Below are positions 4,601 to 9,822 of a DNA stretch of 64,000 nucleotides, piece after piece. Each line of letters opens with the position of its first letter. The first letter of the stretch is position 1. Made by a program: the position numbers and the translations under genes. The notes below the pieces were generated by a model that made no database searches, had not been told where the DNA came from, and saw only the letters and a list, made by a program, of their open reading frames with translations. Origin of the DNA: Agrocybe praecox (Eukaryota; Basidiomycota; Agaricomycetes; Agaricales; Agrocybaceae); contig OZ024851.1 in assembly GCA_964017145.1 (NCBI GenBank), forward strand, positions 496,001-560,000, read 5' to 3'.

Positions 4601-5757
4601 CCATGAAGGAAAAGCAAGCCTGAAACGGGTAATAGGCGATATAACCCCCACTGACGATTCCCTTCCAACAACCAAGAAATCGAAAACAGAAAATGGTCAA
4701 GTCGCGACCGCCACAGCAGCAAAAGAAGAGGGTGGAGAATGGACCAAAGTAGAGAAACGCAAAAAGAAAAAGGCTTCAAAGAATGAGAGCAAAGCTGAAG
4801 TATGTATTTCTTCGACCTTTTCTATTTTTCTCCTGTTTTGATTTGCAGCCGGCGCCTCAGAGTTCGCATTCCGGAGCCAGGAAAGCTGCTGGAACCATAT
4901 TTGATCATTGTACATCATGTCGCTAATCTCAACTTTCCATTTCCGTACCCAGACATCCTCAAATCGACGGTTTTATGTATTCGAACCATGAAATTGTTAA
5001 GAGCCATGCTATTGCGATTGATGTGAGCGGGAGGATTACAGGTTCAGTTGGGGTGTAATTGTTGACTTGTTCATGATTTGATTCTGCATCTCGTCGCAGA
5101 TGCACCACCGCCGAATTGTCTTCGGATTGATGTGCGTGTGCGAGGAATCCTAGGCGTGGTCTGAAAAGCTGACTTGATTGTACAGAATGCGAACCAAATT
5201 CAAAAGGTCGTCGTTCTGCTCGTGCCAGGACTGACTACAGAATTGCTATCACTACCGCCATTACCTACATCAGCGACCTCGAACCTGAATCTGCCTATAT
5301 CGATACCCCTGCTCCCGTTACCAGCGTTTTCAGATACCACGGAAACAATGGCTCCCAGTATACCCTTTATCGCGAGCACGTTTAGCCATGGTTGTCCAGC
5401 ACGCGCCGGGAGACTAGACGAGAATGCACAGCGTGCCCAGCAGCTTCTTTACGGGACCAGTGAGCGGGGGGGAGAAGAAGAGGAAACTTACGCAGAGAGT
5501 GCAATGTACGTCTTATCACACGCCTTGTACGTCATGGGCTGATGTTGTATTATATAGCAGAAACCAACAAATCTGATCCATCAAAGTACCTCCTCTCGCT
5601 CGAGCAGACGATTGAGAATAACTATAAGGTATGGCTACCCCTCCAATGTGTAATTTGTTCTAACGTATCATAGATGGTCTAGAATAACAGATGAGCAACT
5701 AGGACCAGTTACGACTCTGGGCCAAGTCCAAGCACACATTATTCGCCTCCTTTTACA
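4601..5757 (+). pseudogene. REX1: REX1-type 3'-5' RNA exonuclease, N-terminal half, broken
   Basis: In yeast Rex1 trims 5S rRNA and tRNA 3' ends. Seen here in order: a lysine-rich N-terminus ending EKRKKKKAS (4601-4800); the conserved QKVVVLLVPGL segment (about 5200-5240); FSHGCPARA (about 5381-5410) continuing in another frame as RMHSVPSSFFTGPVSGG; LLSLEQTIENNY (about 5590-5628); and ITDEQLGPVTT..QVQAHIIRLL (5675-5755), which belongs late in the DEDD exonuclease domain. The stretch that should carry exonuclease motif I (DxExC) between the last two blocks is missing. The frame changes at least once and stops interrupt it. The sequence leaves REX1 at about 5757 and continues as GRC3. The missing C-terminal half of REX1 is at 9385-9775. 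It is a relic and cannot encode an active nuclease. Confidence 0.75.
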
Positions 5758-7203
5758 TCCCGCTACCAACCCATTTATGCGGAACTACACTCAAAGCATC
5801 AGGAACCTCGTATCCACTGTATGCCCCGCACTCAGCGCCTCTTCCCGTTATACGTGTCGGACCTAGGTCAGAATCAAGAGCGATTAACCTACCACTGCGT
5901 CTCCAACAATTCCTTCAATTTCAAGCTATTGTCGTCCTTCAAGAATTAAACACGAATGTTCACGGTCTTGGTCGTGTATGTCGATCATTTGAAGGCGTTT
6001 TTGAACCGTCAAGGTGGCAAAGAAGTAGTATAGAATCTCCTTTCGGAATCTCAGGTTTTTATTTGGTTTGCATGGTTAACATTTGGTATCATTTTAATTC
6101 TTATCAATTTTCTAGGTCCGCCGACTGTCAAAAGAATGCCATGTATTCAACCTTCCCTCATCCTGGGCCAACCCTCTCAATCGTGCGGCTATTCCTAGAG
6201 ACAGTGTTCTTGGTGGAGCATACCTAGTCAAAGGTGCCAAGAACAGCAGCAAAAGCACGTTTGCACGGACTTTGATGAAGATGGTCCAAAGGGTTAGGCG
6301 CAGATTTGACACAAAAGATTGAAAGTATGTTGGAACCTACCGACATCTTCGACATACGCACCAGTGAGGAAAGATTGGCCCGTCTCTGTGCCACCTATTG
6401 CTATCAGTGGCCAACAGAGTGGTTATGGCGCGTACCACGATTACTCGTCCATGGAGGCAACTACCGCCCTTGTGCATATTCTGGATCTCGTACCTTCATC
6501 ATCAGCTGCGGGATACACACCGTCAGATCACCGAGCGATATCGATCATGTCGTATTTCCACGCTCCGTATCCTTTTGATGCAACTCCAGACGCATGGAAC
6601 GAAATCAACGTGCAATCATGGGATGTTTCAGGGCCTTCATGTGCTATTCCGCCTTACCAGGTCGATTGCGGTACCGCTTTTGACAAGATCGTTCTTACAG
6701 GTGCAGGAAACGAGGACGTTGTGGAAGAAGAGATTGCCCAAGTCCTTAATGGTGCAATCGTAGGCTTTGTTGCCTGCGAGCCTGGAACTGTGGACATCGA
6801 AGGGTCTGAAACCAGAACATCTGGAATCCCGTACAATCGGACCTCTAGCCCTCCATCTCCTGCATCATCCAACTGTGTCGGTATTGGCCTTATTCGGGGT
6901 GTATCATCATTCACAACGGAAAACGGACCATCGTCACCAAAAAAAAAAATTCATATCCTCACTCCCCTGCCTCACTCATTCTTGGAAAACTCTCGCATGC
7001 TCGTCAAGGGCGAAATGGAACTTCCTGTCTGGGGCATGTTTGATTTCAGGAACTTTGAAGACAAAGAGGCTGATGTTGGTGATGTCGCTGATGTTGATCG
7101 TGATAATGTACCTTTCTTGCAATGGGGCAAGGCTCAGGAAGGTGTTCACGGTGCCGACAAGAGGAGAATCAGGAGGAACTTGATGAGAAGAGGACAGATG
7201 TAA
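5758..7203 (+). pseudogene. GRC3: GRC3-type polynucleotide 5'-hydroxyl kinase, lacking its N-terminus, broken
   Basis: GRC3/NOL9 phosphorylates pre-rRNA 5' ends in the nucleolus during ITS2 processing. The similarity starts abruptly at about 5775 (LCGTTLKASGTSYPLYAPHS) and runs through VVLQELNTNVHGLGRVCRSF..FEPSRWQRSS to the P-loop region at 6233-6259, which reads GAKNSSKST; the usual GxxxxGKS/T glycine is serine. Directly after it the sequence jumps to GLGADLTQKIESMLEPTDIF, skipping the catalytic middle (well over 100 residues), and another frame change follows near 6350. From about 6500 to the stop at 7203 one open frame carries the typical C-terminus: SDHRAISIMSYFHA, FDKIVLTGAGNEDVV, ILTPLP, LVKGEMELPVWGMFDFRN and RRIRRNLMRRGQM. 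The matching N-terminal third is at 8707-9384. Non-functional. Confidence 0.78.
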
Positions 7204-7270
7204 TATAAATTTATGATTATACAAAGTTATATAGTAGTTTCATGATCCTGTATTTGACGGTTAGTTAACG

Positions 7271-8254: not shown

Positions 8255-8706
8255 ATAATGGTGTGTAGTCTGTGGCTTATAGAGACAGTGTTTTGGTAGT
8301 GTGTGCTGAGATTGTGGGTAACCTTGAGTTTTTCTGGAAAAAATAACATCAAGCGATATTTAACAAAAAAACGTAGTGGCTGATCTGGAATACCAGACTT
8401 CGTCAGGGAATTGGTTAACCACTTGACAGATATTATAATTCGTCCTGCTCCGCCTCCCATTGGTACACCCAACATAAAAAATTATCATATTTGGGTCAGT
8501 CTAGATGCCTGTATGACATGTTGAGAGGAAGACTTGTTCATTCAATGACACTGCGAGTTGATCAGGAATTATTAATTAGCGCTCGTCGACACGTCGTGGT
8601 TTAAATTCAAACTCCGCTTGAAAGGTCTTGCAGTTGATATACAATCTCCGATGGTTTTTTTAACGTCCTAACTCTGGATACGACTTGAAACATACGTATA
8701 TCCCAT
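8255..8706. other. intergenic; nothing recognised
   Basis: Region between the divergent starts of the unknown minus-strand gene and the GRC3 fragment. No repeat, RNA gene or coding signal was seen. It may hold the original GRC3 promoter, since the GRC3 start codon is intact just downstream. Confidence 0.4.
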
Positions 8707-9384
8707 ATGTTAAGCGCCGTAGCAGCTTCTCAGGCTGCTGCTACACAGGAGACACCAATTCCGTCTAGTTCCAGCTCTGGTCCAAGATCTTTGTCGTCCC
8801 AAACGGGAGCATCGTTACCGAAATCAAAACGCAAGTTATCAACACAACAACCGCGTCCGGAAGTCAAGAAGGCAAAGAGTAGCAAAGCTTCTCAGAAACA
8901 GAAACCAAAGCGCGTGGCCGATGACTTTCAAACCCAAGCAGATATCATCGTTGTAGATTCCGAAGAGTATGATGGATCAGATTCGGCTATGAGTGGTTTG
9001 GAAGATTGTAACCCGTTGGACCTTCTGGAAAAATCGACAAACCCTACGGTGAAGAGAGCGTGGTCCCCAAGCCAACCAATAGTTGATTCATCAGACGAAG
9101 ACTCGATTCAAGACGACGCTGAGATTTCTGGGCCGTTCGATATCTCGTCGATTCTACCCAACCCGCAAATTTCAAGGAATGGAGTCGACGACGACCGGAT
9201 ACTGTCAACTTTCAAACCGGAGATGGATCACAGCGTACTAATCCTATCTCGGGAAGAGTGTTCAGCTTTAGGCTTGCAGGATGGCGTGACAGTGGTTGGG
9301 CTAAGTTCTGAAGATACGCTGTGTCTATTGGGAACATGTAGCCTATCGATCCGCACGGCTCTATCGGCATTTCTACGACTGATG
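8707..9384 (+). pseudogene. GRC3: GRC3 N-terminal fragment
   Basis: An open frame from ATG 8707 encodes the low-complexity N-terminus expected of fungal GRC3: an Ala/Gln start (MLSAVAASQAAATQ), a Lys/Ser-rich nuclear-localisation-like stretch, acidic clusters, then the first folded block LSREECSALGLQDGVTVVGL followed by TLCLLGTCSLSI. At about 9352 the frame shifts by one base and continues as HGSIGIS, which matches the GRC3 'xGSIxIxG' strand. GRC3 then ends within about 20 bp and REX1 begins. The point reached here is the point where the GRC3 piece at 5775 begins, so the two pieces together would make one kinase gene. Truncated; no kinase domain. Confidence 0.75.
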
Positions 9385-9822
9385 CTGTGTCACCGCCGAC
9401 TCTGATCTTTCTTGGGCACTCACTGGAATCCGATCCTAGAGCTCTCAAGATTTGCCTTCCGCTATGCATCGATACGGCACTCACATATCATCATCCTAGA
9501 GGACGCCCTCTGAAACCTGGTTTGGCGTGGCTCACCAAGAAATGGTGTGGTCGTGATATTCAAACGCGAGGAGAAGGTGGTAATGACCCCAAAGAATATG
9601 CTAGAGCGTGCTTGGATTTGTTAAAGAAGAAGATGGAGAACGGACCTAGCTTCGGAGAGTTCAAAATCGACCACGAGTCGATATTTGAAAGAATGGCAAG
9701 GTCAAAGAGGAAGATGGGCCCGAATGGTGTGAAAAGTGCGGTCGTGGACCACGGAAACCTATCTACGCGCACCAGGTCTTCTTTTGATGCTGCCATGAAG
9801 TTGTGCAGGATAAGTTGTTCAA
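9385..9822 (+). pseudogene. REX1: REX1 exonuclease C-terminal fragment
   Basis: The frame from about 9387 reads PPTLIFLGHSLESD (exonuclease motif II region), then ICLPLCIDTALTYHHPRGRP, LKPGLAWLTKKWCGR (motif III region), ARACLDLLKKKMENGP with the DEDD-family late Asp, and VKSAVVDHGN, in the order known for REX1-type nucleases. Motif I is absent because the N-terminal part is elsewhere (4601-5757). After about 9755 the similarity fades and the sequence turns into a carbamoyltransferase fragment at 9823. With GRC3 fused upstream and out of frame, this piece cannot make an active enzyme. Confidence 0.75.

Follow-up and report, generated by a model that had tools for sequence, protein, structure and literature searches.

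How did a single REX1-type exonuclease gene come to be parted around a GRC3 kinase gene whose own halves stand in exchanged order? The question is raised by a 64,000-nucleotide stretch of the Agrocybe praecox genome (the window, C12:496001–560000; the assembly has 59.17 Mb in 347 contigs, here numbered C1 onwards), in which REX1 sequence changes into GRC3 sequence and, farther on and in the same direction, GRC3 changes back into REX1. An earlier note made from the letters alone had read this as a reciprocal swap of two loci. We find that a single copy of the GRC3 locus, circularly permuted, fills the space from one junction to the other. The joints make it highly probable that an extrachromosomal GRC3 circle inserted into a REX1 fragment in a terminal arm of a CACTA transposon of ~84 kb, a setting beyond that earlier reading.

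A permuted GRC3 locus within REX1

Genome-wide DNA searches with window 4590–7260 and 8690–10450, then local alignment to the parent loci, place the pieces on parents from three separate contigs, C3, C4 and C10. Window 4478–5775 and 9370–9763 together follow REX1 (C3:794534→792560), with a closer match than C3 in the sister arm of the same transposon (C12:578.5–580.5k). Window 5776–7392 follows the GRC3 locus from C4:3940133→3938048 and 7398–9370 from C4:3942122→3940133, while 9756–10486 is a piece of aspartate carbamoyltransferase (URA2/CAD) derived from C10:1667881→1667136. REX1 gives way to GRC3 at 5775/5776, at the right-hand end of the range 5757–5775 in the earlier note, and GRC3 to REX1 at 9369/9370, which had been set ~5–20 bp too far right (both by alignment to the parents, with 1–2 bp precision).

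At the insertion point, uninterrupted REX1 as read in the sister arm is CCCATTTTCTACG, and GRC3 on C4 at the opening point is GGCATATGCGG, with a single difference (A for G) immediately upstream; the window reads CCCATTTATGCGG at 5775/5776 and GGCATTTCTACG at 9369/9370. No base of REX1 or GRC3 was lost at the breaks and one T was gained, in keeping with the little or no loss claimed before; 1–2 bp in common complete the scars. Each break base is used twice (C4:3940133 in GRC3, C12:578945/578946 in REX1), and one pair of breaks accounts for both junctions, as the earlier note had seen. Assuming uniform breaks, the chance of independent breaks agreeing within 2 bp at both loci is ~3e-6. The GRC3 pieces keep the donor orientation in exchanged order and meet at 7388–7398, where 3′ flank (...CTTAGCT) is followed by 5′ flank (AAGTGTTTGAG...) across an AGCT microhomology or a 5-nucleotide filler. 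Window 5776–9369 is one permuted copy of a ~4.07-kb locus, closed between C4:3938048 and C4:3942122. A same-orientation permuted copy with one closure joint, a retained donor and an uninterrupted target are among the criteria for duplication through extrachromosomal circular DNA (eccDNA), and each of these is found here.

The re-used break bases also bear on routes that need no circle. In serial template switching (fork stalling and template switching, FoSTeS, or microhomology-mediated break-induced replication, MMBIR), a fork would pass from REX1 into GRC3, on to the 3′ flank, back to the 5′ flank, up to its starting base and into REX1 again. The short microhomologies and one-base gain fit such a path, and sequence scars alone do not separate non-homologous end joining (NHEJ) from MMBIR/FoSTeS, as PMC7450558 puts it. 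The fork, however, must stop at its own GRC3 entry base and re-enter REX1 at the same base, two coincidences (the ~3e-6 above) that a circle yields for free; we consider this path very unlikely. A linear piece of exactly one unit, taken from a former head-to-tail GRC3 tandem duplication, would by reasoning give the same permuted order, but a cut of exactly one period is unlikely, and no tandem GRC3 was found in the 20 kb around the donor (C4:3930001–3950000); its probability is smaller again. The matches of the two genome searches include no second GRC3 locus.

Three diagnostic strings, for the two junctions and the closure, are each present a single time in the window and a single time in a second copy of the transposon on C1. 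The earlier claim that the two junctions exist holds, since they are placed by alignment to the parents and recur on C1. Big near-identical repeats are error-prone in assembly, and because the two copies are ~99.9% identical, the one on C1 offers a control that is only partly independent. Against an assembly error stand the three joints in both C12 and C1 and the exact target-site duplications at both copies; moreover, the fragments differ from their parents by ~5–9% substitutions, so that a chimera built from the parent loci is not credible. We treat misassembly as negligible.

The donor gene on C4 matches the Pfam families Cupin_NOL9 and CLP1_P above the cut-off and NOL9_C below it, and also matches solved GRC3 kinases; it is a predicted GRC3/NOL9 polynucleotide kinase. 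The C3 gene matches the solved SDN1 and ISG20L2 exonucleases (5.6e-18 and 8.2e-11, respectively), and a Pfam search with pieces of this parent gave no match. It is an exonuclease of the REX1/SDN/ISG20 group (DEDD), the name REX1 being plausible and meant at family level, with orthology unproven. The origin given for the pieces in the earlier note is thereby upheld for GRC3, by Pfam and the solved kinases, and for REX1 at family level only. The URA2 piece matches OTCace_N (4.7e-20) and OTCace (1.4e-10) in Pfam.

Both chimeras are decayed as had been described, and every defect named was verified. In REX1, 288 bp are deleted at 5625/5626, taking the end of the exon with YAMDCEMV (exonuclease motif I), a stretch kept in the sister arm. 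GRC3 has lost 431 bp at 6279/6280 (the kinase middle), its P-loop GPKNSGKST has become GAKNSSKST, and a 2-bp gap shifts the reading frame. Judged from these lesions, a working protein from either chimera is unlikely. Substitutions in the GRC3 pieces have a nonsynonymous to synonymous ratio (N:S) of 1.10, against 2.38 expected if wholly neutral; dN/dS (ratio of the nonsynonymous to the synonymous rate) is 0.32 by plain counting and 0.46 with the observed transition bias. The idea that 0.32 is too low for a dead copy was dropped in light of the second value. The counts fit one constrained and one unconstrained branch, as in an ordinary dead copy.

The host transposon and the order of events

The element starts at window 2672 with CACTAGATGCAGGGTTACG..., and its inverted counterpart ends at C12:582442 with one difference in the first 20 bases. 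The second copy, C1:4664223–4747290 (83,068 bp), is flanked as tta-CACTAG...CTAGTG-tta, and CACTAG...CTAGTG stands at both ends of both copies. Over the ~43.1 kb compared, of ~83 kb, they are 99.9% identical. At C1, two neighbouring paralogous sequences (75–76% identity) span the joined flanks with TTA once; with two such paralogous empty sites, the element must have entered a member of a repeated host family there. Segmental duplication of an 84-kb block was rejected, given a separate target-site duplication for each copy and paralogous empty sites for one. The two outer termini match at 40/40 and 39/40 bases. Two further CACTA-like places match at 20/40 and 18/40, and one of them lies within the GRC3 insert (C12:503628); we take it as chance.

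On the minus strand, the frame 61566–63701 matches Transposase_21 at 4.5e-15. Among 8000 candidates scored, 59 relatives have E ≤ 0.001, all of them (59/59) with PF02992 precomputed, and those named to species are from agarics (Agrocybe, Candolleomyces and Panaeolus). The frames at 59527–60810 have no Pfam match, yet they lie within a stretch common to C178 and C181. By its ends, target duplication and tnp2-type transposase, the ~84-kb element is a CACTA/EnSpm transposon. Plavaka was tried and rejected: the ends are CACTAG...CTAGTG, not TGT..ACA or CATCA..TGATG, and the Pfam Plavaka match (2.1e-4) is weak and below the cut-off. A Pfam scan of 20 open frames or parts of frames from the window gave 0 of 20 matches to a tyrosine recombinase (Starship captain).

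Helitrons have TC...CTRR ends. Those of the GRC3 insert are of another kind, falling within a GRC3 exon (TATGCGG... and ...ATCGGCA), and this speaks against a Helitron that captured GRC3 and inserted from a rolling-circle intermediate. For such an origin, the target is a T run, Helitrons do capture genes, and one fungal Helitron seems to form circles, as PMC5148889 describes it; we nevertheless give it next to no weight.

In the right arm (C12:578.3–580.5k), as in its counterpart on C1, the same REX1 and URA2 fragments are present and the GRC3 insert is absent. The uninterrupted target thus survives ~75 kb from the insert, and it is also intact in the REX1 gene on C3. The sister arm shows directly that GRC3 entered REX1 rather than the other way round, and that REX1 had been unbroken here until then. 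This removes the reciprocal swap of two loci proposed earlier, as do the intact parents on C3 and C4. If REX1 and GRC3 had undergone a reciprocal translocation or an inversion, or if a circle had carried the C-terminal part of REX1 with the N-terminal part of GRC3, two recombinant halves facing the same way would be accounted for. Against these, the parent loci are intact and unlinked (the earlier suggestion that they might be neighbours fails, REX1 being on C3 and GRC3 on C4), the sister arm keeps uninterrupted REX1, and the DNA between the junctions is the continuous GRC3 locus with one closure joint. We hold them to be practically out of the question. That a simple inversion does not give the arrangement had been recognized correctly, and unlinked parents and a permuted GRC3 confirm it. 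Of the circle put forward in the same note, the intermediate is retained as likely, with different contents: the GRC3 locus alone (~4.07 kb). Neither a swap nor a REX1–GRC3 circle is required, and a circle of GRC3 is the simplest reading.

The REX1 sequences of the arms have 90 differences from C3 in common; 34 sites are peculiar to the window arm and 31 to its counterpart. These common differences put the REX1/URA2 fragments in the arms first. GRC3, found in just one arm, came later, and since both 84-kb copies have it, the last move of the element followed its arrival. The fusion of REX1 to URA2/CAD lies within 8 bp of common sequence (9756–9763) in both arms, and is an earlier, separate capture or fusion.

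Divergence between the arms, in 250-bp bins, stays at 0–2.8% between the terminus and 5250, then rises to 4.4% in the following bin and 11.7% at 5500–5749; the last stretch before the insert has 7.4% (2/27). On the far side of the insert it stands at 11.5% as far as 9500, and at 2.4% and 1.3% in the bins after that. Within 150 bp of the insert, 28/299 sites differ, against 40/1364 beyond (Fisher p 5e-6). From this peak we infer that gene conversion between the arms was blocked beside the insert. Such conversion, or a donor allele other than that on C4, would explain why noncoding GRC3 DNA is ~7% from C4 while most arm sequence diverges less.

With the GRC3 circle as the intermediate, the history would run as follows. 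A segment of ~4.07 kb with the whole GRC3 gene, either a copy or a piece lost by another chromatid or nucleus, would have been circularized through end joining across a microhomology of a few bases. The circle would then have opened within a GRC3 exon and entered the T run of the REX1 fragment by non-homologous joining or template switching. The REX1 fragment, with fused URA2, was already in the long terminal arms, as its presence in both shows, and the insertion struck the left arm only, leaving the uninterrupted target in the right. The arms presumably exchanged sequence by gene conversion thereafter, save beside the insert. The whole element moved later, as is seen from the C12 and C1 copies, each with its own 3-bp target duplication. 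The transposon therefore carries, as dead cargo, a host gene in circularly permuted form.

Several points weigh against this account. The circle is inferred and has never been seen, and its closure joint has since changed (T now C, with AAG repeated, or else the 5-nucleotide filler). Noncoding GRC3 differs by ~7% from C4, so the circle may in truth stem from a different allele or lineage. Divergence of the arms also reaches 8.0% (6/75 sites) at 10000–10074, away from the insert and beside a gap in the other arm; the 150-bp cut was picked after the divergence profile had been seen; and the excess of differences by the insert could partly reflect a burst of mutation during insertion. Comparison with the C1 copy took in just ~43.1 of ~83 kb, and ~1.6 kb at C12:567760–569342, probably a younger insertion, is missing from that copy. 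A search for an allelic empty site of the C12 copy found none and matched just its two flanks.

Coordinates of the GRC3 insert, its REX1 and URA2 surroundings and the host transposon (positions in the window)
Feature	Position	Strand	Remarks
Target-site duplication TAT, left end of element	2669..2671	.	right copy C12:582443-582445; tat-CACTAG...CTAGTG-tat
CACTA (EnSpm) transposon, part in window	2672..64000	+	whole C12:498672-582442, 83,771 bp; continues rightward beyond the window
Left terminal arm	2672..10878	+	inverted relative to C12:578050-582442, with unaligned gaps
REX1 5′ part	4478..5775	+	from C3:794534 on; 288-bp deletion at 5625/5626
GRC3 3′ part and 3′ flank	5776..7392	+	C4:3940133→3938048; 431-bp deletion at 6279/6280
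Putative circle-closure joint	7388..7398	.	GRC3 3′ flank to GRC3 5′ flank
GRC3 5′ flank	7398..8706	+	from C4:3942122 on
GRC3 N-terminal coding part	8707..9369	+	C4:3940827→3940134
REX1 continuation	9370..9763	+	abuts 5775 in the uninterrupted sister arm
URA2/CAD aspartate carbamoyltransferase fragment	9756..10486	+	C10:1667881→1667136; joined to truncated REX1 in each arm
CACTA transposase region	59522..63701	-	open frame 61566-63701 matches Transposase_21 (tnp2)

Other cargo and relatives of the element

Host matches in more than one piece were checked by eye for permuted order over window 12600–64000 at E ≤ 1e-20 (C12:560001–582442 lies outside this scope), using the best 38 of 59, 38 of 78 and 11 of 13 candidates scored. 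None is permuted; 13579–17410 against C5 and C1 and 44557–45310 against C10, for example, are in donor order. GRC3 is therefore the only permuted host gene seen among the candidates scored. The stretch 13579–17410 is mostly 92–95% identical to C5:941405–945018 and partly to C1:4194355–4197150, and is probably a host gene copy. An open frame with a RING-type zinc finger lies at 36937–37494 (plus strand) within the element. The frame at 45506–46396 (minus strand) has a Sad1/UNC-like domain (4.2e-13) and matches C178 at 75% over 1 kb; it is possibly a regular gene of the element family. Degenerate tandem repeat units of ~120 bp occupy 3445–3955 in the terminal arm.

The element interior is 66–76% identical to sequences on C178 and C181 and 65–90% to C6:2.52–2.565 Mb (C6:2520939–2565280), and the transposase region matches C178 and C181 at 76% over 4 kb. 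C178 (137,710 bp) has a terminus at 114,067 facing inward and the transposase at 14,027; on C181 (C181:11816–31026), 15.2 kb separate a terminus from a transposase of equal score. If the two layouts agree, the C178 element would measure ~115 kb, interrupted by the contig end. It is not collinear with the window element: the transposase has one orientation and most other blocks the opposite, and the block matching 32827–34690 is displaced. These relatives suggest a family of giant CACTA elements. A genome-wide search with the 21-base terminus (≤3 mismatches) found 38 places, against 0 for a reversed control. Seven pairs of termini lie ~280 bp apart and resemble miniature inverted-repeat transposable elements (MITEs) with the same CACTA ends as the giant element (C1:324384–324661, C6:574389–574665, C6:1935875–1936151, C7:3134124–3134400, C8:3223387–3223663, C12:1000913–1001190 and C8:272287–272563).

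It is conceivable, though on balance we doubt it, that giant CACTA elements of an undescribed family in agarics (84 kb, and perhaps ~115 kb) regularly take up whole host genes through circle insertion, with the long terminal arms serving as landing pads and gene conversion between them recording each arrival. One case does not establish a habit.

Comparison with known systems

The window element resembles fungal EnSpm, for which PMC12730594 gives CAC...GTG ends, 3-bp target-site duplications and a transposase of that group, in distinction to Plavaka termini (TGT..ACA or CATCA..TGATG); ends, duplications and transposase group all agree. Its size does not fit with CACTA elements as described: at ~84 kb it is far larger than the 16–20 kb termed significantly enlarged in PMC6431247, and an element of C. 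quinoa measures 16,523 bp (PMC8978399). Basidiomycete Starships, which PMC13066641 puts at 41,942–605,797 bp and identifies by a tyrosine recombinase captain, are likewise giant fungal elements; unlike them, the window element has CACTA ends, 3-bp target-site duplications and a tnp2-type transposase. In the literature searched (subscription papers and most preprints outside its scope), we found neither a CACTA element near 84 kb nor a case in which any CACTA element captured a gene through a circle, and the search for giant CACTA elements in Agaricomycetes gave 0 papers.

Pack-CACTA and Pack-TYPE elements, as presented in PMC8903248, also enclose host gene fragments between CACTA-type ends, by a published route in which DNA between neighbouring insertions is co-mobilized. 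GRC3 differs in that it seems to have arrived as a circle, in permuted order, and that no CACTA end adjoins it convincingly, in an element that has its own transposase-like gene. The insert also resembles human duplications mediated by eccDNA, where a donor abcdefghij becomes efghijabcd in the recipient (PMC7188851) and the joints are non-homologous, with 1–2 bp of microhomology or short indels (PMC7188851, PMC7450558). The GRC3 insert has the same order and similar scars. Unlike those cases, of which none described in PMC7188851 seems to have made new coding-gene copies, here a whole gene locus went into a gene fragment in a fungal DNA transposon, and the other arm keeps the target uninterrupted. 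Cattle and yeast also have circle-mediated duplications, as cited by PMC7188851; these share the circular intermediate and reintegration, and cargo in a transposon is not described for them there.

In our judgement, gene acquisition by cut-and-paste transposons has mostly been argued from end products. Here a single acquisition can be read base by base, from the donor through the closure joint, the opening point and the target in the sister arm to the later move of the loaded element, and the case opens gene capture by way of circles to direct tests. The GRC3 insert appears to be an unusually well-preserved record of how a jumping gene picks up genes of its host. As far as the sources cited above describe them, circle-mediated permuted duplication and CACTA elements with captured fragments were known separately; a whole gene, permuted as from a circle, within a giant CACTA element did not turn up in the literature searched.

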